From the NCBI GenBank assembly GCA_033065855.1, contig JAVXUO010000113.1, forward strand, positions 1 to 64,000: a stretch of 64,000 nt of DNA, given 5' to 3'. How positions within the stretch are numbered: position 1 is the stretch's first letter; each line of letters opens with the position of its first letter. The notes beneath the pieces are model-generated. The model made no database searches and was not told the origin of the DNA. It saw only the letters and a program-made list of their open reading frames with translations. Shown piece after piece: positions 3,313-62,480 of the stretch. The DNA is from Escallonia rubra (taxonomy: Eukaryota; Streptophyta; Magnoliopsida; Escalloniales; Escalloniaceae). Both the position numbers and the translations under genes were made by a program.

Positions 3313-6300
3313 ATCTGCATCATCAGAGTAATCAGGAATCATATACCTTTCTTCTTCCTCGAGGGAGGAAAATCATCTTCATCTTGAAATATGATGGACC
3401 AGAACTTCTGCATGTCTTTTTTATAAGTCAGCCTCTACGACATTGCCATTACATCTTCTAGAACTTCTGCCTCTATTCTTGGACCCCGGCCCACTTTCTC
3501 GATCTTTGTGCCCTTCACTTACTTTTGATCAAAATAGCCCGCAACATAAGCATCTATTCCATATTCAATTTCTGGATCAACTTGATGGCAAATGGCTTCT
3601 TTTGATGTCTCTTCTTAGCCGGCAAGGAACTACTCATCCAAGGTTCATCAATATGCAGAGACCGTATCGGATTCCCGTTTACATTAAACTTGTCTTCAAG
3701 CATCTGGGAATCGATCAAGGACTGCAGAATCCATTTGACCTGAACTTCTTCCTCTGCCTGGGGCCGACAGAAACTTTGAACTATACTCTGGGAGGATCTA
3801 CTAGAGTTAGGCAACTCAGCCCCCAAGCCTATTGTAACACAAGCTTCCTCTTTAACTCGTTCTAGATATTTGATCTCATAGGCCTCTAAAAATCCCAGTT
3901 CAGTTATGTATTCCGTTCTCCAAAGTTAGCAACTTCTCCTTGACACGAGGCGAAAGGAAACTGATGTAATCTTTAGACAACAATGGAGCAATCTAGTCCA
4001 TACCATCGAAGAATGCTTTACCCCCTAGGAAACTTTTGAAATAAGGAAGAGGACCCCAACCCTAAGAAATAGCTATAATCACTGAGGCACGAAGGTCTCT
4101 CACCATAGTAGCAAAGTTATTGTAAAAGTTCAGAACTATTTTTTCGTAATTGAACTGCCTAAGAATGTGGAAAGCAAAGTAGAATGATGTAGAACGAGTG
4201 ATACTCAACAATTCTCAGAGTAGGTCCATGAGGTTCCTACCAATCACAGCAACAAAGGATATCATTGGAGTCCCATGCAAAGAAAAAGCGAGTCCAATCA
4301 TCTATGCTAAAATGACCCTAAAAAGCAAACGCTGAGCATAGAACAAATAAGGGCGATACATGACCTCAGCAATTATAGCTATCAGCTGGATGTGATCCAA
4401 AAGCCATATGTACAGAAGCAAGGGCTACCCCTAAATGTAGAACTTGGATTCCCCATGCACCTCGGTACTACTATTGATGGTTTCAGCTACCACTACTGGA
4501 ATTAGGGTTTTCCCTTTCGAAGACACTTGGACTTATAACTCAGTCAATCTCTAATCAGCAACACCAGGGCCCACAACAGCAAGATATTTGACAACCAGGC
4601 ACAACCTCAGAGCCGCACAACCAGGCACAACCTCAGAGCCGCCACACGATCACATGCATACTGCCGACCATGGTCATCCGGTTTCGAAGAAAAATATTCG
4701 AGATCCTAGAATTTGCATGCAGCCTGACAAATGTGTTCATGAACAACCACCATCCGCTTAATTCATGACTGGCTTCAGATAAAAGCACCCATCCAGATGA
4801 ATAAGGTCCACCAAAGGAATTAGCAAAAGCTCATAACTGGAGCTCAAAGATCATGGGATTATCTTCGGAGGCCATTGGGAGTTATTAGATTGAAATTCCA
4901 ATGCCCCCTTTAAAGTATGAGTCCCGAAAATATAATAAGAGAGCCCTAAGTCCCAAATATATAATGACTCAAAGTTTTAAAATTCAAAAGAACTTATCGG
5001 ACAAACAAGACAGTTTTTGACAAACCAACCGATTTTTCTTTTTGTTTTAAATATTTGTGAAAAGCTAATCTCTTGGAGCAACTGCTCGGTTTTACCAGAA
5101 AAATTGTTTTTTCTTTTGATCAACCATTTGATTTTACCATAAAAAATAAATTTTGTTTTGGTCAACCTTCCGGTTTTACCAAAAAAATTAATTTTGTTTC
5201 TGATCAACTGTCTGGTTTTACCAGTGTTTGTGAAATGTCAGCATGCATCAAAATTAAATTAACATATAAATTGCTAATAAAAATCTCAACTAAAAAAATA
5301 AAAGAAGTAATTGTGCATTACATTGGAGTTTGCATGATAAAAGTTCTAATTGGACTATAAATCATATTCTAAACTAATCAGCCATCCGAGCATAAACTCC
5401 TTTGGGTCTTTTTGGGGTTAAGCTCCCCCTTGCCGGATCTCAAAGACTCGTCCTCTCGCTCATACTCCTCTTCCTAAGGGATTGGGGCATGACTCCACTA
5501 CCATGTGCTCGGTCGGTCCAGGTTTCATGTAGGTCCTGTAGAATACAGTCGCAACACTAGAAGATCGACGTCTCAATTTCCTCAGGGCGTAGGCTGGGGC
5601 TTTTCCCTTGCTTCTACTAGCACCCTCTTTCTCTTGTGGTAGTGCAGACTCTAGTTGGCGAACCGGCCTTAGGAGAACTCTGATGGTCTCCGTTGTCTTC
5701 CTTCGACCTCTCGTCTAAAGTACTGGAGCCCCTCCCGTAGGGGTCTAAGTGGCAGCAATAGGAGTAACGGGTTTCGAAGAACTCAGTCCTCTACTTGATC
5801 CACCTCGCGAATGTGGCATCGATGGAGTGGGAGTAGGTGCCTTCGTTGTCTCAGCAGATGGCCCATACACCTCCAGCAGGTTCTAAAGTGGATACCATGT
5901 CTTTGAGACTGCGTTTCATCTAACATGCATCCTTTAACATTGAGCTCAGGATCTACCAAAAGAGATCATAAGGTTAAAGTTAAGCATAAAAGGACATATT
6001 GAGCACAATTGAGATTGAAGGTTACTGTCTTGACCTGAGCGAGCTCATTGATCCCTAACACCTCCATCTTTTTTTGACCGGCGGATCGGCTCTTTCTCTT
6101 CACCTTTGCCCCTCAGAAATATCTACACTGACAAATGAGGGAATGCAATATCCTTTACAGCCTCCGCCTCCTTCTTCCTCTTGCGTTTCTAGTCCCGGGC
6201 CGCCTTAGCCCGCTGAATCCTCTTCAGGCACTCCAAAGTCAACGGAGGACCCAAGTTGTATCACCTTGCCTTGCCTTTCCAGTCTCAGCCCGCTTAATCC

Positions 6301-6336: not shown

Positions 6337-8018
6337 CGTAACCCCTGAAACTTTTTGTTTTATCGAAAAATTATTTTACCTTAATCTAATTTATTCGTCG
6401 TCTTTTTTGTAAGATTAAAAAGTGTGGGTAAAATTGGGAAGAGATAACCAAAATGTTGGGGCTGGGGGTTTAAGAAATTTTCTTTTTTTGGGTTAATTTA
6501 TATAAGGTTAGCTTAGGCATCAGCCGTCAAAATTTTGGTCTCTTTTTGTTATTTTTTTACATGAAACTTGGAGAAAGAGAGGGAGGGAGAGAGGGGAAGA
6601 AGGTAGTGTTAAATTGCCCAGGTATGATCTCTATTCTTTTCTCCCTAATTTTAACCATTAATTGGATGTATAAAGTATGGTTTTATGTGTGTTTTATAGG
6701 GGTGTTGATGTGTTGATTGCTAGGATTTTGTTTGTGTTTCAAAAGGTTGAGATATTGGTGTGTTTGGGAAGAAGGCTGCTGTAGAGCAGCATAAGAGTGG
6801 GTTATGATTTTTGTCAATATCTTTACATTACTAATCCGATTGATGTGTTTTTTACACTTTCTAAAAACATTGCTGTGTCCAAATCAACTTTTCAGTTTGA
6901 AGTTTTCTCAAAATCTCACGCTTGCATATAAAAAAATGAACTTAAAGTTAATACACCGTAAAAGTCCAGAATTTTTCAGTTTCTGGCAGTCACTTCGATT
7001 TGCTATAGAGAATTCATTATTCATTGGTTTTTGTGATTCTTATATTTATAGAAACCTCATAAAGTATACTTTAACTTTGTAGCTTTGAGTTTTTTGAGAT
7101 TCATTATTTCTACTTTAAAATAACCATTGAACAAAACTGGTCCGCCCAGAGATGTGTTGTTTCTATCAGCCACTTCTATTTGCTATAGAATATTCATTAT
7201 TCTTTTATTTTTAGAGATTCTTATCTTTTTGAAAACCTTAGCAAGTCTATTTCAACATTATATTTTTGAGTTTTTAGAGTTTCTTCATAATTCGGTTTCA
7301 AAATGGTCAATGTACAAAACTAGTTTTTGCTGAAAAATGATATTTCTAGAATTACATATCAGCCCTTTGTCCAATTCTTTTAAGCTAATTTTGAGCATAT
7401 ATGGGCCAAGTCAAAACTAAAATCTCTCTTATTTGTACGAAACCTACATCGTGGAAATTTCTGGGATTTTTCCGGGTATGCGAAGGGCATTAGATGATTT
7501 TATTTCAAAAAGGGATTTTGAATTGTTTGATATAGCAAATGAGCTTATTTTTAGCCGAAAAAGTATTTAGTAACCTTGTTTTACTGAGAGGCTTGAGTGC
7601 CTAAAATTTTGTGGCTTTTCGGTGTCAATTGCTATGCTTGTGAAATATGGCAAATTAGCGCTCAATTAAAGGAGTGGATTAGGATTTTGAGCGAAAAATC
7701 TCTCGAGTGATTTTTTAGTGCAAAAAACCTAGGTAGTCATTTTAAAAGGTGCTTTGTGGTGCTTTTTGCTGGTACATTAGGCGTCGGACGTATTTTGCTA
7801 ATTTTACACAAGCCCGTGGGATTTTTGGTAATTTTACTTACTTAGGGGCGAATTTAGCAGTCAGACATAATTGAATGTCATAAATTTCTATCCTTGCTAT
7901 TTATCGATTTATGTTCTAATAATCGAGGGGAAGACCAAGTCATGACCTAGGGTTAATACTGGTTATCGAGTCAAGTAAGTATTCCTGCTATTTTCCGGCT
8001 TATACCCTATTTTCGATG

Positions 8019-8057
<39 letters not shown>

Positions 8058-9050
8058 CATATACATACTTATATACTGATACGTACCAACTGGAGGTTTT
8101 AAAGTCTTTTGCAATGCAACTACTTTCATTTAAAGTTGTTTGATGAGAAAAAAATGAGTTGCCATGGAATGTATTACATCTGGTTATTATGAACCTTGTT
8201 TTGAATCATGATATTGGTGTTGTTTTTGGTTGCTGTGCTTCACATCTAAAGGGGAAAAGTTAGGTTTCAGGTCCTAGTCAACGGGACTATACATTGACGC
8301 ATAGTATTGTTGTGCGTGGTTCGTCCATGCATCCATAATAATGATTATCTCGGAGGTGGGTGTGGGATTTCGAGTCCAAGTCAGTGATACCATACGTTGT
8401 CCGCAGCTTACCATGAAAAGAGTTTGAATAGTATTCGATGATTTACATACTGTTATTCTATCGTTCTGGAAGAGTTTTCTGCAAACATGATTTTGCTATC
8501 ATAAAGTATATGTATAGTATCTCTTGTGAAATTGTTTACTAGATTTAAATCAAAAGACCTATGACATGTTTTGAAAATCAAAAAATTACTTTGGAACATA
8601 GTATGAGCACTTAATGGGCCCTTAGCTCACTCTTTCAAAATTTTCAGGTGATTACTTAGCGGGACCCGATTTTCCTAAGAGCCACGAAGACGCGGTCGCA
8701 TGAGAGGATTACTAGAGGAGTTGAAGTCTTCTTAGAAAGTTTAAAGATTTTCAGGTTGACATTTTTGTATTTCAAACTATTTTGCAAATTGTTCGGAGCA
8801 TAGATCTCCACATGATTTTTAATGATCTGTGTTAGTTGATTTATGAAGGATGTCATTAAAGACATATTTGAGAAATTTGTAAGTATAATTCCTAGCAGCC
8901 TTATTAATGGGTTAATTTTTAAATGCTCGGTTATAGATTCTAGCGTACATGTTGTAGTAAGGCCTGGCAGAGCCCTTGTGGAGGCTTAGTGGGTCTGTGG
9001 CCGTTCACGAACCTAGCTTATGGGCTCACTTGTGGGTTCAGGTCGTGACA
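6337..9050 (+). mobile_element. Ty3-type solo LTR, 2.7 kb
   Basis: The block is flanked by the direct 5-bp repeat CAAGT (6332-6336 and 9051-9055), as expected for an integrated LTR element. The right end reads GGTTCAGGTCGTGACA and its complement resembles the left end. About 430 bp before the right end is a GCTCACTC...TTCAGG segment that also occurs near the 3' ends of the other Tekay-like LTRs here, which sets the orientation. No internal region lies between the ends, so it is a solo LTR left by LTR-LTR recombination. Confidence 0.7.
8022..8053. repeat. (AC)n microsatellite
   Basis: About 16 AC dinucleotides inside the solo LTR, followed by a short ATAC-rich run. Confidence 0.9.
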
Positions 9051-9055
9051 CAAGT

Positions 9056-11135
9056 CCTCTCTCACAAACGCCTTGTAGGTACAAGGATCGTTTGGCCACC
9101 TCAGGGAGGATACGCCAATCCCCTATTCAGGCTCTGCCTCAACCCCCAGTCTAGGGTCCCTGACTGATACATCTTAAAGGGAGAGGTTGCCGGGATGCGA
9201 GCCTCAACGTCCATGTGGTGCTGGAAGAGCACTTGCACTCCCAGGTAAAACTTTTCCTTGGAGTATCCCACCTACAGCATTTGGCACCGGGTGAACGCCA
9301 ACTCCTCAGGGTAAGACTCAGGTATTTCCCACTTGAACAAGAAAAATTGGAAGAAAAAAAGAACGAATTGTGAATATTAATGGATTTACCTTAATTAAAA
9401 TTCAAAAACTCAAATGAATGACTCACCGAGCGCTGAGCCAACCCGTTGAAGCTCTCCCTGTAGGCCTCCACTGTGGCCCAAACCCGCTCATCCCAAAAGT
9501 TCCAACAGAACATTGCATGCTAAGTCTCATCAGTGTGCCCCTCCCCCAATCGCGGGCAAGTGATCTCAAAACCTCGAAAGCCAAAACATGTAAGTAAAAA
9601 TAACATGTGAGCAAAATGTATGAATGCATGCATGAGAATGATCAAAGAGGTTAAATATAATTGGCATACCTCCCATACGTTGTAGTACTCCATAAAGCTG
9701 GAGGATTGCCATCAGGAAACCGAGCACATCGAATGATAGCGATGAGCCATGGCAGGAGTGCCTCAGTTGTACTCCTCCATCTCTCCAACATCCTCCAGAT
9801 CCCTTAGGCACCACAACTGCACCGAGTCGTCCTCATTGCTGAAAATTGTCTTCCCTAAGTCGTACAAACAAGACCCCTTGGACGTACTAGTTTACGGATG
9901 CCCCATCGACAACCTCCAGGGTCATACCCTCATAGTGGGAATGGAGAGTACCGAGCAACTGGACACGAGGTCTCGGTCCTTGTCGAGATCATAGGCTCAA
10001 GGAAAAAGCCTTCCTCGAACGCGAAGTAATATTCGCAAAATCATATAGGGGTAAGCGTGGTCTCCTTGAATGGTAGGTGGAACGTGTTGGTGGAATCCCC
10101 CTAATGCTTCGTGAAGCACAAGCGATGCTTTTTACTAAGGGTGAACGCATGTAACCCGTTTAAAAAAAATATCAAAATCGGTCTCGACCACCCTATTATC
10201 TGTAGACTCGGGTACTTTCCCCTATCATTACCTTACCAATTTTGGGGATACCCTACAAAGTATGTTTGAGGGGACAGGCTGCACAAAACCAAAAGAAAAT
10301 GGAGAAAATCTCAAGAGCCATTCAGGTTATGCATGGAGTGCATGAAAAACAAGTGCATGACCTACTTTGCATGGGGATGACTTGTGTGTGAAAAAGGCAT
10401 GAAATAATGTGTGTTATTGAATGGTAATCGCTAGAAAACATACCTCGTCCGTAAAAAAATGTTTGGCTATGACGTGCTTTTTGATCCGTGAGTCAAGAGA
10501 GTGATCATCCGTCCAATTCTTCACCCGGAATCGCGATACACGACTAATTTGAGGCTGACCCTCGTGCCCTCTTCTAGTATGTATCCATGATTTTCTAAAC
10601 AATTAGGGAAGAATGTTGGGGCATTATAGGATTTTAAAGGCAAAAAGTGTAACTGGAGTTGGATTTGATGATAAAAGACCTCTCGGAGAGGAATTTGATA
10701 GAGAGAATGATTGAATTGTATTTGAAGTGAATAAAAAAAACCTAAATATAGGGCCCAAATCTGAAAGGATAAACTGGTCCATTTGCTGTTTATATTAGGC
10801 AAACCTGCTGACTAATCGTCCGGTTTTTGACACTTTAATTGGCCAAAATTCAAACTCTCTGACTAACTGGACGGTTTTTGATTCAATATTTTGAGTTTTC
10901 CTATCTTCTGACCAACCGACTGGTTTTCGACCTTAAGAAAAAATAAAAAAAAATTTGCACACCCATTTGTGTTAGCGTGCTTGCGTGCCTTACATGTTTG
11001 CGTGATTGTTCTTTTTCATAAACTTGGTGTGTTTTTCATGCTCATACATGTTGCATTACACTCATCATTTCACCTAAGGTGATTTTTATCTAATATTTGT
11101 GTGCTTGCATGATTGCCTGTGCATGTCTACTATCT
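9056..11135 (-). other. Exon-like minus-strand relics, no gene named
   Basis: Sequence continuing from the left side of the solo LTR. Several short minus-strand segments (about 9160-9350, 9419-9620, 9660-9830 and 10440-10600) have coding-like composition, and two end at GT dinucleotides that could be old splice sites. They do not join into a recognisable protein. Near 10800-10930 are three copies of a motif like GACCAACCGACTGGTTTTCG, related to the 42-bp repeats at 5.1 kb. Confidence 0.3.
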
Positions 11136-11732
11136 TATCTTCTAGGGGTGAGCACGGTTCGGTTGGTTCGGTTTGGAGGCTGAATACCAAACTGAACCGA
11201 CCAACCTCGGTTTGAGAAAAAAAAAATCGAACCGTAGTTGAACAATTCGGTTTCTGCGGGTTGAACGGATTGAACGGTTCGGTTTGGACTGTTTAATCGG
11301 TTTGGGCCAAACTCAAATTTGGGCAAGTTTAGACCCAAAAATAACTTATAAATACTAATAAGCTCCAAAAAACTGAATTTTTTAATCATAATTAATAACA
11401 CTTAGCGAGATGTAGGCGGCGAGTGAAAAATGTGTGTTACGTTAAGGGATTTAGAGTTTATCCCATTTTATATGAGTGGTTAGATAACTATGGTTAGTAA
11501 AAAATAACTAAGATTAGGTAAAAATATAGATATGTTATATTATATACGGTTGGTTCGGTTTATGCGGTTTCAAAAAAATCCAAACCGAACCGACCGAACC
11601 GAATGTACGGTTTGGGAAAAAAAAAACCAAACCGATTGATTTTTTTGATGAGTTTAGAAATAGACGGATTGGTTAGTTCGGTTTTCACGGTTTGATCGGT
11701 TTCAACAGTTTTAATGCTTACCCCTATCTTCT
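11136..11732. repeat. 8-bp target duplication TATCTTCT bracketing a hAT MITE
   Basis: TATCTTCT occurs at 11136-11143 and again at 11725-11732, directly outside the element termini. Both copies are identical. 8 bp is the hallmark length for hAT insertions. Confidence 0.9.
11144..11724. mobile_element. hAT-superfamily MITE, 581 bp
   Basis: Termini are AGGGGTGAGC on the left and GCTTACCCC on the right, i.e. short hAT-like TIRs. They are followed inward by the GGTTCGGTTTGG-rich subterminal repeats typical of this MITE group in many plants. The 8-bp target duplication is perfect, which suggests a fairly recent insertion. The element has no transposase and would have moved using one supplied elsewhere. 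Open frames across it are products of the repeated CGGTT motif. Confidence 0.9.
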
Positions 11733-11869
11733 GATTATTTTTCAATCCGATTACTCCAATCTGTTGCTCAGTTCAGTGATTCATGTACAGTGCCAGCAAG
11801 GCAGTGAAGATCCCACGTTTGTTGACATAAGCAACATTTTTTCTCATATCAAGTAAATTGATATGTTCG

Positions 11870-12550
11870 ACACTCTGAGACCAGCTGTCTTTGTGACAGT
11901 GTTGGCTTTGGCTTTCAGTGGTGTTTCTGAAACTTTCATATGTTCAAGTGACCAACTGTTTCAACATATCTGGCTCAGGATCTTGGACATGTGCCGATAT
12001 TCCTAAGAAACCAACCGTTTCGACACATTGTTGGCTCCGCTTCTTAGGTTCACCTTTTTCCTTATATCTAAGTGACCAACCATTTTGACACTTTATTGGC
12101 TCTGGCTCTTAGATATAAGTCCAGTGTGCTTAAGCGACCAACTTTTGACACATTGTCGGCTCTGGCTCTTAGGTTCACCCCCTTTTATACATCCAAGCGA
12201 CCAACTATTTCGACACGTTGTTGGCTTCTGCTCTTGGATGTACTCCTATATTCCTAACCGACCAATCGTTTCGACACGTTGTTGGCTCCGGCTCTTAGGA
12301 TCATCCTTTCTTTATGCCTAAGCGACCAACTGTTTCAACACCTTATTTGCTTTGGCTATGAGATATAAGTTCTTATGGCTAAGCGAGAAGCCGCTTAAGG
12401 GCATTGTTGGCTTTGGCTCTTAGACATAATTTTTTTAGTATCCTTAGAAGATCAATCCCTTCGACACGTTGTTAGCTCTGGCTACTAAGGATACACCCCT
12501 TGCCTGACAACCAACCGTTCTGACACATTTTTGGCTCCGGCTCCAGACAA
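11870..12550. repeat. Tandem array of about eleven 62-bp hairpin units
   Basis: Units of 58-65 bp share a core like GCGACCAACTGTTTCGACAC followed by GTTGTTGGCTCCGGCTCTTAG. In each unit the core is flanked by two arms that are complementary to each other but differ between units. Examples are 12061-12072 with 12108-12119 (12 of 12 bp), 12187-12197 with 12233-12243 (10 of 11), 12438-12447 with 12485-12494 (10 of 10), and 11937-11948 with 11982-11993 (10 of 12, the rest wobble pairs). Inside, CCAAC and GTTGG can also pair. Two or three units have poor arms. The array lies upstream of a Copia-like LTR end and may be part of its U3. Confidence 0.85.
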
Positions 12551-12823
12551 TGTTCAATTCCAATTTTCTTTGTAATTGTTGACTTTATAAGTCAAGATTC
12601 ATTATTTTGATAATTCCAAGACTACTGCTCTAACATTAATCTAACAATGTTTTTAAGTATGATTTCAGGACCACCAATCATAGCATGGAATATTCTCTGG
12701 TCAAAGACTTTGGACTTGGACTTAGTTTATTTTTCTTTCTTTGTAATAAATCTAAAGCTAAGTCTTCTTAAAGATCTACCAGAAAATCAAAAAGGACAAA
12801 CCAAGAAGTCTTCATCTTGAAAA

Positions 12824-13110
12824 GATTTTCATTCGGAGGAAAAGATTTTCATTCGATTGAATTCTTCAGTCCTCGATTGTCTGATTTTTAAACTTGATTT
12901 TCATTCGAAGGAAAATACTTTCATTCGACTAAATCCTTCAGTCCTCAATTGTCTCATTTTATACTTAGTTTTCATTCGAAGGAAAAGTCTTTTATTGGAC
13001 TGAATCCTTCAGTCCTCGTTTGTTTGATATTAAACATGGTTTTCATTCGAAGAATTTTTTTTCATTCGAAGTCTTTGCTTTTCATTTGACTAAATGTTTC
13101 AGTGGCACCA
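12824..13110. repeat. 72-bp tandem repeat in LTR U3
   Basis: Units begin at 12824, 12896, 12968 and about 13039 with (G)TTTTCATTCGAAGGAAAA and continue to a CTTCAGTCCTC block; the last unit is partial. The first 18 bp of each unit is nearly palindromic. The array sits about 150 bp upstream of a TATA box, the place where LTR enhancer repeats usually lie. Confidence 0.8.
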
Positions 13111-13258
13111 AAATATCTCTGTTCTTCAAATTGCTTCGAACAAATCTTGGATTCATTCGACCGAATTCTTCAGAGATCATTTAACTGAAAATTCCTTTGA
13201 ATGATTTTATTTATTCATTCAACCTTTATCTACTTTTCAATGGTCATATTCCTTCAAG

Positions 13259-13265
13259 TATAAAA
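13259..13265 (+). promoter_or_regulatory. TATA box of the Copia-like LTR
   Basis: TATAAAA within AAGTATAAAAGGGACTC, followed by a CT-rich leader. This is the expected spacing for an LTR U3/R boundary. Confidence 0.45.
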
Positions 13266-14595
13266 GGGACTCTTACAGAGTTTATTACGAACTTTTCTAA
13301 TCTCTAAAAAATCTCTCTCATTCTTCTCAAAAAGACTCTCTCAACTTATTCATACATCTCTATACTATTCCTTGAGTGAGTTCCTTGTTTGAGATATTAA
13401 ATAGCAAGCTTCTTGGTTAAGTTCTTTAAGGTTTCAGATCTTCCCACCTAAGAAAGCTTAGCTCATTTGTTTTTCATTGTAATATCTACTCATTGAGGAG
13501 TGTAAATTATATTTCAATTGTATTCTTCATTTTACTTATAATCGTTGAAAACCTTGAACAAGTTTCAGATCTGTACTGTGGTTTGAGATAGCACCCGAAG
13601 CTAGCTGATTAGTGAAAGGCTCGAGTAGGTTTCCCTTGTGTGGAGTGCTCGGGGACTGGATGTAGGCAGGTAGAGCCGAACCAATATAAATTTATGTGTC
13701 GATCTGTGATTGATGTTATCTTGTTAGCTAAAATTTTAAATTTCTGATTAGAGATATAAACACCTATTCACCCCCCAGTGTGTTTAGGGACCTACAATAA
13801 TATTGTTCAACGATCAATTGTTATTACTGTAGGCTCTAACTTTGAACAATATTAGTATCTTGACGAACTGCGTTGGTCCGACCTCATATCAGCTGGGTCA
13901 TGGTCCGCGTTTAGAGTCTTGTGGTCTTTTCTGCATTTTACTACAAAAATGTGTTGTTTTTCGGTGTCGTTCATTCGCACGCGAGTTCTCTTACCGTGGA
14001 GCTCTGTAGACACCCCATTTTTGTAGTTATTATTAATTACATAATAATTGATTTCATTTCTAATTAGACTGTATTATTAAGGGTCGGGCCTTATAATATA
14101 AATTTATTAATTTAATTTGGTCCAATTGTCAAACCTAGTTATTTAGTCCAGTTGTCTAATCCAAATGTCCCGTCCATTTGCTCGGTCCAATTGTTTAGTC
14201 CAGTTGTCAAGTCCACTTTAGTTTAGCAGTCCAAGTGTTCAGTCCAGCCAATTATGTCAATCTGGTCTATGTCTAGATAATGTTTTGCCTAGATGATTTA
14301 GGGAAAATTTTGTGAATTATCCTTGAGGCAACAGATTAGATCGATGATTTATATGATTTAGGAAGATAAATGCAAAATCTGGTACATCCCGTTTAGAAAA
14401 TCAGAGATAAATACCGAATAATGTCTCAAAATTTGAGAAAAAATATTATAATATTAGAGGCTGAACATGTCGATTTTCGACAAACTGGCCAATTAGTTCA
14501 CTTTTGTCAATTTATAATTTTTATTGAATATTTTGACTTATTTCCAAATTGCGGTTGACATAGTCATCTTTATCATTTTTTGGGCCCTATAGCAG

Positions 14596-14603
14596 TATAA
14601 ATA
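14596..14603 (+). promoter_or_regulatory. TATA box of the outer LTR
   Basis: TATAAATA in the context AGCAGTATAAATAGGCC, about 590 bp into the LTR, followed by a TTCATTTTCAGGGGTCTCAG leader. Confidence 0.45.
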
Positions 14604-15960
14604 GGCCTTCATTTTCAGGGGTCTCAGTTTAATCTCAACTCTTTTTCCCTTGAGATTTTATACCATTTCTTTTCGAAGTGGTATATCATCTCTTCGAAGG
14701 AAATAGCTCCTCATATTCACTTAAAAAGTTTCTTAATCTCCAGCATTGTGGATCCTTCAGAGAGCATTCTCCAGTCGTCCATACAAGCATATTCGCGAGG
14801 TAAATTTTGTAGCTTTCTAGTCTAGTTCATTAGTCTAGAATTATCTCCTATTTCCCGCGGTCACATTTTATTTCAAAATCATAAAAAAATCATTTTCGCT
14901 TCTTAATACAAGTCTAAGATCAAAGTGTAGGTCACCTCTCGTAAGACCAGAGCCGAGTTATGATGGTTTTGATTCCAGTTTTGTAACAACCCCAAAATCT
15001 GAGGCTGGAGTTATGGTAAAAAATCCCAACTAATCATTTATTGGACCTTTAGTGACAAATTGGTGAGCATTATACACTATGATCCTTAGCGAAATTTTTT
15101 TTGGGAACCATAAGTTATAACTTAGCAGTAGCTAGAATAAGTGACATTTATTGAGATCTTTAGTGATGATTAGAGTAAACGACATTTTTGGAAAATAATT
15201 TAGCGACATATAAGTAATTATTTCGGTCTATAGTGATGATTGACGTGAGCAAAAATAAATATATATTAGCAACCTTTAGCAACAAATTTTTGAAAAAAAA
15301 AACCTAGACTATGTTATTTAATGATAGTAGCTATAGGCTATGTTAATTATGGTCTTTAGTAACGATTAGTGTGAGGATATTTTTTTTCAAGCTTAAGCGA
15401 CATTTTTATCAAACGACCATAATTGTAAATAAAACTGGGTGCAAAGGTTAATTAATGAAAATGAAGGGGCCAACTTAGGAAAACAAAATTTCGGCTGGTG
15501 TTATTACATAAAAGGAAATTCCAATGATTATCTGTTTCCTTTAATTGGTTACGACATCTATACTATACATATGCATAAATTATATACTTAGAAGGTCAAT
15601 AGAGAGAGGGAGCAGAGGAGAGAAATTTGGGGGCATTTTGGTTTCCCCATTTTCGGTTACTGCCAAAGAAATATAGAGAGAACAGAGAGTTACGTTTATA
15701 TAGAGAGAAAGAGACACAATTTTCGGTTACCGTTACAAACAGAGAGAGAGAGAGAGAGAGGGATCTGAACGAGAGGAACTGGGTGCCGGAATCCGGAGAT
15801 TTTGGATTTTGATCTCGGTAAGCTTCAATCCCATTTTTCTGCCTTTTAATTTTATGTTTTAGTGTAGAGTGTTGGTAATGTGTGTAAAATGGGAAAGGGG
15901 AAAGGAAAAGGGTATCATGAATGTTGGTGCGTAACAGTGTATAGCGGTGAATTGTGTAAA

Positions 15961-23579: not shown

Positions 23580-25361
23580 TTTTTTTTGGTACAAAGGAAA
23601 AAAAAGAAATGAAAGACATACTACTTGGAGGGCCTCACATGAGCCACTCCACACAGATCAGCCAAAATAAGGCTAGACAATTCGCTAGGTGCTTCACTAA
23701 TACATACATACTTCTCGTTTTGTCCAACACCTAGGTTTGCCAAATAGTCCGCACATTGGTTTCCTTCACGCATTGTGTGCATTAGAACGCTTCCCATTTG
23801 CTTGATGATGTTTCGGCAGTCCTCCACCAGTGCTCTGAGTGGGTGGTTCTGAGTGTTTTGTTCCAAAATCAGTTGGAGGACAGAGGTAGAATCTGTCTCG
23901 AGTGTAGCTTTCCCCCAGTTTCTTTCTCTTATGGTCATGAGGCCTCTGTGAACTCCCCATAATTCAGCATTGAGGCTGTTACTTTGTCCGATATTCCCAT
24001 AGAAACCTTCTATCCATTTTCCTTGGTCATTTCTGGCTATCCCTCCATATCCGCTTTGGCCTGGGTTGCCTTTAGCCGCTCCATCTGTATTGACTTTCAT
24101 GAATCCTGCATCTGGGAATTTCCAACTAATCAGTTTGGTTGTGTTATTAACATTTTTCTTTATAGAAACTTTGAAAGCTTCATTAACTTCCCTTGCAAAC
24201 TGGTGGCTGGAATATAGGGCTTCCGAAGGGCTGATGTGTTTGTTGTCAAAGACACTTTTGTTCCTGCATTTCCAGTTAGTCCACATAATAGATATAAAAA
24301 GAGTTTTCCAAGGAGGACTAAGGTTGTGGTTATCAAATAAGAGGACCCCTTTCCAAAACCAAGGAATTATCTGTAGATTTTGAAGTTGTTGTAACTGCCT
24401 ATGGTCAATGGTTTTATTCCAGATGTTCATGGCATGGGAACAATTCCACAGAACATGTAACGTGGTTTCCTCAAATCTGTTACATCTAGGGCATAAGCTA
24501 GAATCAGTCATTCCTCTAGTCTTTCTAAGGGAATTAGTAGGAAGTTTTTCATGAAGCACAATCCAGAGAAAACCTTTGAGCTTTTGCGGTAATTCCATGC
24601 TCCAGAGAGTATGCCAACTGGTGGTTTCAGCAGGTTGAATGCTAGGATAGTGGGTGGAGATCAGGTCAAAGGCACCTTTGGTGGAGAAAATACCATTTCC
24701 AGCGAGGCCCCAGCAGGGAGTGTCATGTAAAGTGCTGTATTTAGCAATGAGAGTGTTAGTTATCTCACATTTCTCAGTATTTGAGAGTTTACTTTCAATG
24801 GCATTAATGTTCCAATCCTTATTATCTAAAATAGTGATAACCTTAGTTTCATTATCTCCTCTCACCTCATTTTAGTTTAGAGGTTTGGCACCACACCACC
24901 AATCTTCCCACAAGGATATTTTGGAACCATCTCCAACAATCCATTTGGTTCCTTTCACAAGAATTTCCTTGGTGCTTAGGATTCCTTTCCATATGCATGA
25001 AGCTCTCTTTTTCTTTTCCCAAACTCTAGGGTTGTTAGTGAGCTTGTATTTATCTTTCATAACCTCAATCCACATTTTTTTCTCGCCTTTAATGATTTTC
25101 CAACCAAGTTTGGACAGCATAGCAACATTGTTATCTTTAGTCTTGCGAAGGCCTAAACCACCTTGTTTTTTAGGGGTACAAACAGTGGTCCAATTGACAA
25201 GGTGGATTTTTTTTGAACTTATAGTATCACCCCAAAGGAAGTTTCTGTTAAGTTTGTCAAGCATATTGCAAGTGTTCATGGGTAAAGGAAGGGTTTGCAT
25301 GGTGTAGGTGGGGAGGGCAGCCGTAGTATTTAGGAACATATGTATAATGACTTCTTATTCA
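23580..25361 (-). mobile_element. L1-type LINE, 5'-truncated
   Basis: The element is read on the minus strand. It ends in a poly(A) tail (T run at 23580-23588) just after the coding part. It is flanked by an imperfect 24-bp duplication, CCTTGTAG..TCCAACTTCCTA.C, at 23556-23579 and 25362-25385 with three differences. Those features are the signature of target-primed LINE insertion. Only the last 1.7 kb of the second reading frame is present; ORF1, the endonuclease and the reverse transcriptase core are missing. Confidence 0.93.
23621..25339 (-). pseudogene. LINE ORF2 C-terminal part: thumb, zf-RVT and RNase H
   Basis: The first section (25339-24872) contains the post-reverse-transcriptase region with DKLNRNFLWGD and KKQGGLGLRKTKDNN. 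The same frame continues after one in-frame stop at 24872-24874 with a further 414 codons (24865-23621). These contain a zf-RVT domain (C-x-x-C with CPRCN and H-x-x-x-x-C, about residues 85-155). An RNase H domain follows, with acidic residues at about D260 (NTDGAAKGNPG), E300 (NAELWG) and D324 (ETDS), and a late Asp near 379 (NQCADYLANLG). All four RNase H residues are intact. Length and domain order are normal for the tail of plant L1-type elements. A non-working copy because of truncation and the stop. Confidence 0.92.
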
Positions 25362-35914: not shown

Positions 35915-36006
35915 TTAATATGCTTGGCTCCTCATACGCCATCCGCAGAGGCCATCGATTTTCCGGTAGGCTCTGCAAATGGCATACAGGGAGCCAGGCA
36001 TATAAG
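35915..36006 (-). ncRNA. MIR160: MIR160 precursor, copy 1
   Basis: Read on the minus strand, the 5' arm carries mature miR160 (complement of 35980-36000, 21 nt, beginning TGCCTGGCTCCCTG). The 3' arm carries the star strand (complement of 35919-35939, GCGTATGAGGAGCCAAGCAT plus one base). The arms pair along their whole length, with further pairing between CAGAG and CTCTG next to a short loop. This is the arrangement of canonical plant MIR160. miR160 guides cleavage of ARF10/16/17-type auxin response factor mRNAs, affecting root cap, leaf and floral development. Transcription would start on the minus strand from the TATA-like box about 630 bp upstream. A second copy lies 9269 bp to the right. 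Confidence 0.96.
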
Positions 36007-39700: not shown

Positions 39701-39940
39701 GTCCAGGCGCCGCACTCCAAAACTCCGTCGCGCCCGTGCGCCGCGCCGCTGATACAGCCATGCCCCCGGGCTCTCTGTCACACTACCGTGCCCCCGACAC
39801 CATACTCACTTCATCGCACCCATGTGCCACAATCATGTTACATGCCCCCCGGGCACCACACTCATTCACCACACCATGCGCACATTGCCTTGGTCGTGGA
39901 ACATGCTTCGACCCACTCTCTGGAGTGTACATCACCCGCG

Positions 39941-40616
39941 GGGATAGGTGACTCCTCCGGGACACTATCTCTGCCAGAGAGCTCTTCAACTCCCCTTCTG
40001 CCAGGTAGACAGCTCCTCCGGGATGCTACCTCGGCCAGTCGGGTAGACGGATCCTCCGGTATGCTACCTTGACGTGCTCTGAGTGCTCCGGCACAAGGAC
40101 TTACCCGCGGAGATAGGCAACTCCTCCGAGACACTATCTCTGCCAGGGAGATCTTCAACTCCCCTTCCGCGAGGTAGACGGCTCCTCCGGGATGCTACCT
40201 CGGCCAGACGGGTAGACGGCTCCTCTGGGATGCTACCTTGACGTGCTCTGAGTGCTCCGGCACAAGGACTCACCCGTGGGGATAGGCGACTCCTCCGGGA
40301 CACTATCTCCGCCAGTGAGCTCTTCAACTCTCCTTCCGCCAGGTAGACGGCTCCTCCGGGATACTACCTTGGCCAGTCGGGTAAACGGATCCTCTGGGAT
40401 GCTACCTTGACGCGCTCCGAGTGCTCCGGCACAAGGACTCACCCCCGGGGATAGGCGACTCCTCTGGGACACTATCTTTGCCAGGAAGCTCCAAGTGCTC
40501 CGGCACGAAGACTCCCCTTCTGCCAGGTAGACGGCTCATCCGGGATGCTACCTTGGCCGGCCAGGTAGACGGCTCCTCCAGGACACTCTCTCCGTCAGGG
40601 TGCCTGTGTGACTGGC
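39941..40616. repeat. Satellite-like 169-bp tandem repeat inside the LTR
   Basis: The landmark GGGATAGGCGACTCCTCCGG recurs at 39941, 40110, 40279 and 40448, an exact 169-bp step. Each unit also has one or two CAGGTAGACGGCTCCTCCGG blocks and a TGCTCCGGCACAAGGACTCA junction. Units are about 90% alike by eye. Confidence 0.92.
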
Positions 40617-45183: not shown

Positions 45184-45275
45184 TTAATATGCTTGGCTCC
45201 TCATACGCCATCCGCGGAGGCCATCGATTTGCCGGTAGGCTCTACAAATGGCATACAGGGAGCCAGGCATATAAG
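45184..45275 (-). ncRNA. MIR160: MIR160 precursor, copy 2
   Basis: On the minus strand, mature miR160 is the complement of 45249-45269, identical to copy 1 over all 21 nt. The star strand is the complement of 45188-45208, also identical to copy 1. Differences fall in the loop-proximal stem and loop: copy 2 has CCGCGG and CTCTAC where copy 1 has CCGCAG and CTCTGC, which turns two pairs into a wobble and a mismatch. The miRNA duplex itself is unaffected. Same target class (ARF10/16/17) is expected. Full conservation of the duplex, with drift elsewhere, argues that both genes have stayed under selection. Confidence 0.96.
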
Positions 45276-61429: not shown

Positions 61430-62480
61430 GTGATACTGATTTGCTTTATACTTGTGGACGCTTCTTCAAGAGTTGTCTGACACTTCTTCAAGAGATGTCC
61501 GACACTTCGTCGAGAGGTGTCTGACACGGTGTTTGATAATTAAAAATTAAATCAATATCTATGGACACCGCTGAGAGGTGTCGGACACGTGTCCGGATGT
61601 GTCGGTGAGGTGTCGATAGGTCACGGACATCGCGTCCGATCGACACCAAAATGTCACATTTTGGCTTTATACTTGTGGACACCTCTTCAAGAGGTGTCCG
61701 GCACCTCTTGAAAGGGTGATCGACACGGTGTCCGGCAATTAAAAAATAAATCAATATCTTCGGACACCGCTGAGAGGTGTCGGACACGTGTCGGTAGGTG
61801 TCAGACAAGTGTCCGGAGGTGTCGGTAGGTGTCGGACACCATACTGACACCCTATATGAGGTGTCGATGCTTTCTAGGATATAAGTGATTTAGTTGTAAT
61901 TGTTAGACTTCTTTACATCAATTTTCATTCTTTATATAATTTTGTTAACTGTGCATTGAGCATTTGAAATTTTGAGAATTGAGATTGTTGACTGTGCATT
62001 GAGAATTGAGATTGTTGACGGAGGATGTGACCCAATTGGATTGAGATATCTGTTTGGTAGCACGGACACTGAGACCGCATTCGATCGACACAGACACCGA
62101 TTTGCTTATACTTGTGGACGCTTCTTCAAGAGTTATCGGACACTTCTTCGAGAGGTGTCCGACACGATGTCTGGTAATTAGAAATTAAATCAATATCTAT
62201 GGACACCGCTGAGAGGTGTCGGACACGTGTCCGGGTGTGTTGGTGAGGTGTCGAGCTGTCGGTAGGTCACGGACACCGCGTCCGATCGACACCGACACCG
62301 AAATGTCACATTTTGGCTTTATACTTGTCGACACCTCTTCAAGAGGTGTCCGACACCTCTTGAAGCGGTGTCCGACACGGTGTCTGGAAATTAAAAAATA
62401 AATCAATGTCTTCGGACACCGCTGAAAGGTGTCGGACACCATATCGACACCCTATATGAGGTGTCGGTGCTTTCTATCAA
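61430..62480. repeat. GTGTCGGACAC-rich repeat block, duplicated
   Basis: Four units of about 160-225 bp start with TTTATACTTGTGGACNCNTC-type sequence at about 61439, 61670, 62105 and 62321. They contain many GTGTCCGACAC/GTGTCGGACAC palindromes and a shared TTAAATCAATATCT. Units 1-2 (61439-61879) and 3-4 (62100-62477) are a higher-order duplication. No coding meaning is apparent. Confidence 0.85.
61976..62070. repeat. Dispersed segment GAGAATTGAGATTGTTGAC, three copies
   Basis: The same segment, continuing to GACCCAATTGGATTGAGATATC, occurs at 61976-62050, at about 62600-62680, and at 60022-60080. The last was split by the MULE-like MITE. The copies flank the GTGTCGGACAC block. Confidence 0.75.

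Follow-up and report, generated by a model that had tools for sequence, protein, structure and literature searches.

Tat elements are known to carry tandem repeats between pol and the 3' LTR (Vondrak et al., PMC7004042; Vicient, PMC11963269). As described in these two papers, the repeats are hypervariable or family-specific; the word "hairpin" is missing from the main text of both. Ogre/Retand elements are reported to have the domain order RT, RT-RNase H, second RNase H, integrase, and 57% of Ogre elements to carry a plant mobile domain (PMD) (PMC6317226). Grande, Retand, and RIRE2 are described as having an antisense ORF between pol and the 3' LTR, transcribed in Grande from a promoter upstream of the gene (PMC7264820).

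The window analysed here, a 64,000-nucleotide stretch of the Escallonia rubra genome (contig JAVXUO010000113.1), contains an array that resembles the Tat 3' repeats in lineage, place, and short monomers, as these features are presented in PMC7004042 and PMC11963269. The host of the array likewise has an antisense ORF between pol and the 3' LTR, although this ORF carries a plant mobile domain, a difference from the Grande, Retand, and RIRE2 ORFs as PMC7264820 presents them. Unlike the described repeats, the array consists of hairpins with covarying stems and a shared core, in an order largely conserved in 40 arrays. Searches of openly licensed papers turned up no account of Tat 3' repeats made of ordered hairpins whose stems covary.

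Two other systems invite comparison. RNA viruses carry multiple packaging-signal hairpins that have a common loop motif and differing stems; the hairpins described here, by contrast, are tandem, regularly spaced, located in a retrotransposon, and known from sequence alone. Plant fold-back and hairpin DNA transposons contain repeated palindromes, whereas the palindromes here are internal to an LTR retrotransposon rather than at element termini.

An array with covarying stems offers a concrete, testable reason for Tat 3' repeats, which could act as a structural signal in several copies or else preserve the traces of arm copying in reverse transcription. It also opens the way to ask whether other Tat arrays share the feature. 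On the fullest reading of the array, given below, signals of this kind might also survive in decayed form as some of the 3' tandem repeats found elsewhere in the Tat lineage.

Array architecture

The array (11867-12554) comprises eleven units of 57-59 bp each, in which a core of about 35-36 bp lies between two arms of 11-12 bp. Core starts are 59-65 bp apart within the array, except that the first two are separated by 70 bp; a repeat finder gives the same unit spacings of 59-65 bp, and the periods that TRF assigns to 12010-12370 are 65 and 125 bp. An inner core stem, CCAAC/GTTGG, is nearly invariant. The earlier note had counted about eleven units, and a core profile does detect eleven; the count nevertheless falls one short, as aligning the window with its relatives reveals a twelfth unit (type H, 13800-13852; arms 13800-13810 and 13842-13852), split from the array by an inserted LTR.

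All twelve units lie on the plus strand. Unit 1 (11867-11925) is assigned to type 0 by position, and has a short and imperfect stem and a core match score below 10. It is followed by unit 2 (type 2, 11937-11993; arms 11937-11948 and 11982-11993); the partly paired unit 3 (11996-12054; arms 11996-12007 and 12043-12054); unit 4 (type C, 12061-12119; arms 12061-12072 and 12108-12119), with a perfect stem of 12 bp; unit 5 (type A, 12123-12179; arms 12123-12134 and 12168-12179); and unit 6 (type B, 12186-12244; arms 12186-12197 and 12233-12244). Unit 7 (12247-12305; arms 12247-12258 and 12294-12305) is partly paired and unit 8 (12311-12369; arms 12311-12322 and 12358-12369) poorly paired. Unit 9 (12372-12430; arms 12372-12383 and 12419-12430) is type G by its arms, with a core score below 10. 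Units 10 (type E, 12438-12494; arms 12438-12450 and 12482-12494) and 11 (type F, 12496-12554; arms 12496-12507 and 12543-12554) complete the array proper. The four arm pairs singled out in the earlier note are all present: unit 4 pairs at 12 of 12 positions; unit 6 over its first 10 bp; unit 10 at 12 of 13 positions; and unit 2 through 10 Watson-Crick and two G.T pairs of 12.

About ten stem types can be distinguished. Judged by eye across the 40 arrays, their largely conserved order is 0, 2, then the A/B/C units, then G, E, F, and H; cores stay alike across types. Types E, F, H, and 0 have little arm sequence in common with the others, whereas types B, 2, C, D, and G seem, again by eye, to be linked by single paired changes.

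Host element and nested LTR

Searches of the 566-Mb assembly found at least 48 distinct array loci, the window and its near copy included, from two DNA searches that returned at least 40 each. A 34-base core pattern allowing three mismatches has 121 matches, and the reversed pattern none. Among the matches listed, identity to the window array is 67-82%, except for a 98% copy in contig C1386; because of this divergence the sampled insertions, that copy aside, are old. Window positions 8001-13372 recur as a 96% copy, part of the nested LTR included, at the end of C1386 (locus L009), explicable as a segmental duplication or as a haplotig.

The window was aligned with 20 relatives fetched together with their flanks (L009-L028), each as far as it reaches. 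They match the window in three blocks: about 9050-11140; 11723 to about 12580, which takes in the array; and about 13798 to 14980. The leftmost block (9046-11140, minus strand) corresponds to the antisense-ORF region of the host element; its frame is broken here, the PMD is seen in relatives, and homology starts at 9046-9054 in eight of them. A PMD match (PF10536) lies at 2495-2857 on the minus strand of L011 (2e-6), and an antisense PMD piece occurs in L022 (0.01), both below the Pfam curated cutoff. The rightmost block contains the host 3' LTR (14005-14980, plus strand; 3' end truncated here), which starts with TGTAGACACCCC behind a purine-rich tract; LTR start and purine tract are present in the window and in 12 of the 20 relatives. 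Between the first two blocks, an insertion at about 11141-11722 is missing from the relatives, whose BLAST matches stop near 11140 and resume near 11723. (This insertion, of about 582 bp, has imperfect inverted ends, TAGGGGTGAGCA..., and looks like a non-autonomous hAT-type element.)

Evidence for pol upstream of the array comes from one copy, L022. The stretch upstream of it on the same strand, L030, carries predicted pol domains: RVT_1 (PF00078) at 4799-5086 (2e-11); RT_RNaseH (PF17917) at 5491-5796 (7.6e-6); a second RNase H, RVT_3 (PF13456), at 5800-6201 (1.6e-12); and an integrase-like stretch at 6575-7027, which has weak PDB matches (best 0.0016) and no Pfam match. No comparable pol domain order was traced in L029, upstream of L011. 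L030 thus presents, as far as these matches indicate, the Tat order of RT, RNase H, a second RNase H (candidate archaeal-type), and integrase. The extra ORF between pol and the 3' LTR is represented by the antisense PMD pieces below cutoff, and the array itself lies between pol and the 3' LTR in fixed orientation. These predicted features mark the host as a decayed Ty3/gypsy element of the Tat lineage (Ogre/Retand-type). One departure from the Tat 3' repeats is that monomers are not hypervariable: within this repeat family the core is conserved, the type order largely so, and the arms are paired.

The earlier note had suggested that the array, lying upstream of an LTR TATA box, is U3 structure. 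An LTR does adjoin the array in this window, and it includes the TATA-box stretch (near 13260) along with 71-bp repeats. However, this LTR is not part of the hairpin element. It is a solo LTR of a foreign retrotransposon (12577-13796, plus strand; 1220 bp, TG...CA), nine copies of which elsewhere in the genome match over exactly 1-1220. It starts after the eleven units, sits in the twelfth hairpin, and is bounded by a target-site duplication (12572-12576 and 13797-13801; four of five letters alike) at a site where relatives are intact. The LTR is missing from 19 of the 20 relatives and shared only by L009, the 96% duplicate of the window. In 15 of the 20, the array is followed after about 200 bp by the 3' LTR that belongs to the element itself. 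Five do not show this succession: L009, whose contig ends; L010, which matches only just before the LTR; L027, which is interrupted; and L018 and L019, where other repeats follow the array. The foreign LTR begins at 12577, after eleven of the units, and the element's own LTR at 14005, after all of them, so the array is outside both LTRs, and there is next to no prospect that it is U3 structure of its neighbour. Rather, it is a built-in part of the element, located between the antisense PMD ORF and the polypurine tract with the 3' LTR. The 3' UTR is reported to be the favoured target of insertions that nest in other elements (PMC6911290), a preference that a solo LTR within the hairpin element fits. 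A copy of the same foreign LTR is also inserted in a second array, L042 (C1143:38500-39100), after one of its units, in the other orientation and at a different place than in the window.

Covariation of the arms

Units were located by core alone, using a profile made from seven window cores, and the duplex energy of their arms was then measured. The profile gave 233 core matches overall; a first set comprised the 181 units whose core scored 10 or more, in 21 arrays that include the window and its near copy L009. For the null model, arms were re-paired among units of one array in 5000 permutations. In the window, where nine units reach that score, the mean arm duplex is -9.57 kcal/mol within units and -4.37 kcal/mol between units; six of the nine pair best with their own partner. 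Across the first set the corresponding means are -7.77 and, between units of the same array, -4.44 kcal/mol (permutation z -15 with RNA energies and -14 with DNA energies).

A second set was drawn from 20 stretches fetched afterwards, 19 of which had at least three units (151 of 153 units used). Here the means are -7.25 and -4.53 kcal/mol (z -12), and 61 of the 151 units pair best with their own partner, against an expectation of 19. Arms that face each other across adjacent units in this set show no advantage over other arms (-3.97 for 114 pairs). In both sets there is a Watson-Crick excess at every stem position from 1 to 11 and little or none at positions 12-14: stem length is 11 bp, with a sharp limit. 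The claim that arms change between units yet pair within the unit therefore holds in 21 arrays, and again in 19 new ones.

The earlier note had also argued that this is no plainly decaying tandem repeat, and the permutations bear it out. Chance pairing in such a repeat could appeal to the overall decay, to the modest folding scores described below, and to an empty RNAalifold result; against this, none of the 5000 permutations reaches the observed sum in either locus set, which rules the explanation out for practical purposes.

For an alignment, 72 of the 109 units of ten arrays were selected by core (score of at least 17) rather than by pairing. The innermost stem bases, AAG/CTT, are almost constant in it. 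Paired cells amount to 81.0%, compared with 74.5% after shuffling and at most 44.0% after sliding; cells with both sides changed number 165 versus 79.1 shuffled, a value reached in none of 500 shuffles. Both-sided changes thus exceed the controls in three tests, the exception being the count of pairs with any such change (16 versus 14.0 shuffled, reached by 62 of 500). In a further test, a single arm served to define the stem types, and their majority arms were then paired with each other: with five types, for which the smallest attainable chance is 1 in 120, self-pairing is best in three settings. A fourth setting, where three types remain (3304 of 20000), says little.

When did the paired changes arise? 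Among 325 units, both arms were assignable to a type in 172 (matched in 123, mixed in 49), and 153 could not be typed; matched units average 8.5 Watson-Crick pairs of 11, mixed units 6.1, and untyped units 6.5. This comparison illustrates rather than tests, because the labels were picked from observed units and column majorities. Unsupervised grouping into types of at least eight units covers 258 of the 325. Within uniform types so defined, arms pair just as independent columns would (0.835 versus 0.832, and 0.747 versus 0.750); a third, mixed type, evaluated over six pairs, gives 0.769 versus 0.771. Both-sided changes in the three larger types number 33 versus 15.1, 12 versus 6.6, and 19 versus 15.7 (the last showing little excess), and are put down to subtypes. 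The earlier note's alternative, an inverted-repair process that copies one arm to the other, accordingly finds no support as an event in place: uniform stem types bear no sign of gene conversion or inverted repair after insertion. Since arms in these types decay independently, the paired changes most likely occurred in the active lineage, not in resting copies, which in the uniform types have decayed since without sign of constraint on pairing. All of the covariation derives from just a few stem types, so independent events are few.

Folding and strand

RNAalifold, named in the earlier note as a check, proposed no pairs on the 72-unit alignment. Single units (325) show a modest gain in folding over dinucleotide shuffles (mean z of -1.0 for the sense and -1.4 for the antisense strand), and z for whole 620-nt arrays ranges from -0.06 to -4.4 at six loci. 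Antisense units fold slightly better than sense units (-12.8 versus -11.9 kcal/mol; units are not independent). The density of inverted 9-mers is no higher at the array than in other bins: eight exact inverted pairs occur in the 12-kb bin, versus 18, 12, and 13 at 49, 62, and 63 kb.

Mismatches at stem positions 1-11 were examined for wobble. G.T outnumbers A.C by 166 to 146 (172 units) and by 170 to 126 (151 units), a combined ratio of 1.24; re-paired arms give 1.19. Neither a clear wobble signature nor a strand preference emerges from this comparison in the two sets, so nothing points to sense RNA in particular. The comparison is a weak one, its power limited by post-insertion decay, because most mismatches probably arose after insertion. 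From these counts we infer that G.U pairs made up at most a few percent in the source.

Models for the hairpin array

These results suggest that folding, not stem sequence, mattered while the element was active. We put at about an even chance the reading in which the hairpins were selected for structure in an active Tat element, pairing being kept rather than stem sequence. As the sequence pattern shows, the active element bore some twelve hairpins in a row; every one had a different 11-bp stem, enclosing a shared core of about 35 nt with a second short stem. Selection would have kept the pairing because the hairpins served as repeated recognition sites on a single strand. That strand would most likely be the genomic RNA, in its 3' part, and the reader could be an element protein, for example Gag or the antisense-encoded protein, acting at export, packaging, or reverse transcription. 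The active element would then have needed the hairpins. The full version of this model, an ordered set of about twelve structure-selected hairpins with one recognition core, serving as a multi-site 3' RNA or ssDNA signal whose stems diversified by compensatory change, is more tentative, and we consider it less likely than not. What favours selection for folding is that stem length is fixed, the core is common to the units, their order is conserved, and matched units outnumber mixed ones.

A serious rival, though on balance an unlikely one, dispenses with selection: arms would be copied during reverse transcription, by template switching or quasi-palindrome correction, and units would multiply by strand transfer. 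A nascent strand that folded at the conserved inner bases could copy one arm from the other, yielding perfect arms of arbitrary sequence. The near-constant innermost AAG/CTT could prime such copying; types E, F, H, and 0, which share little arm sequence with others, are in keeping with it; and the lack of a clear G.U excess agrees with it. Yet single paired changes seem, by eye, to connect types B, 2, C, D, and G, as in stepwise compensation, which speaks against arm copying as the sole process, and the 49 mixed units among the 172 typed persist uncorrected, even if some may be decayed arms mistyped. Uniform types also lack post-insertion compensation, an observation that bears on the chromosome rather than on reverse transcription. 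More doubtful still is a role for pairing on the antisense strand or in duplex DNA, where the array would be the leader or promoter of the antisense PMD gene and act through RNA hairpins or protein-bound cruciforms. The array does lie upstream of the antisense ORF, about 1.2 kb from the domain in L011; antisense folding is slightly better; mismatches have no clear strand preference; and the Grande antisense gene is described as having its own promoter (PMC7264820). The strand difference, however, is less than 1 kcal/mol per unit, among units that are not independent.

Other features of the window

At gathering score, Rfam finds only MIR160 in the window, and has no match at the array. The two MIR160 precursors (35918-36003 and 45187-45272, minus strand), which together with the transposon types mark the sequence as that of a plant, both lie within a tandem duplication (about 9.3 kb; copies at 33.7-38.3 and 43.1-48.1 kb), the matching pieces of which are 78-90% alike. 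A 169-bp tandem repeat occupies 39932-40491; its motif GGCGACTCCTCC was also seen by eye after the L018 and L019 arrays, and the repeat may be a second type of 3' repeat. A minus-strand open frame of 416 codons (23624-24871) contains zf-RVT and RNase H domains and is LINE-like. Repeated 22-bp near-palindromes are found at 61457-62439, and resemble CACTA subterminal repeats.
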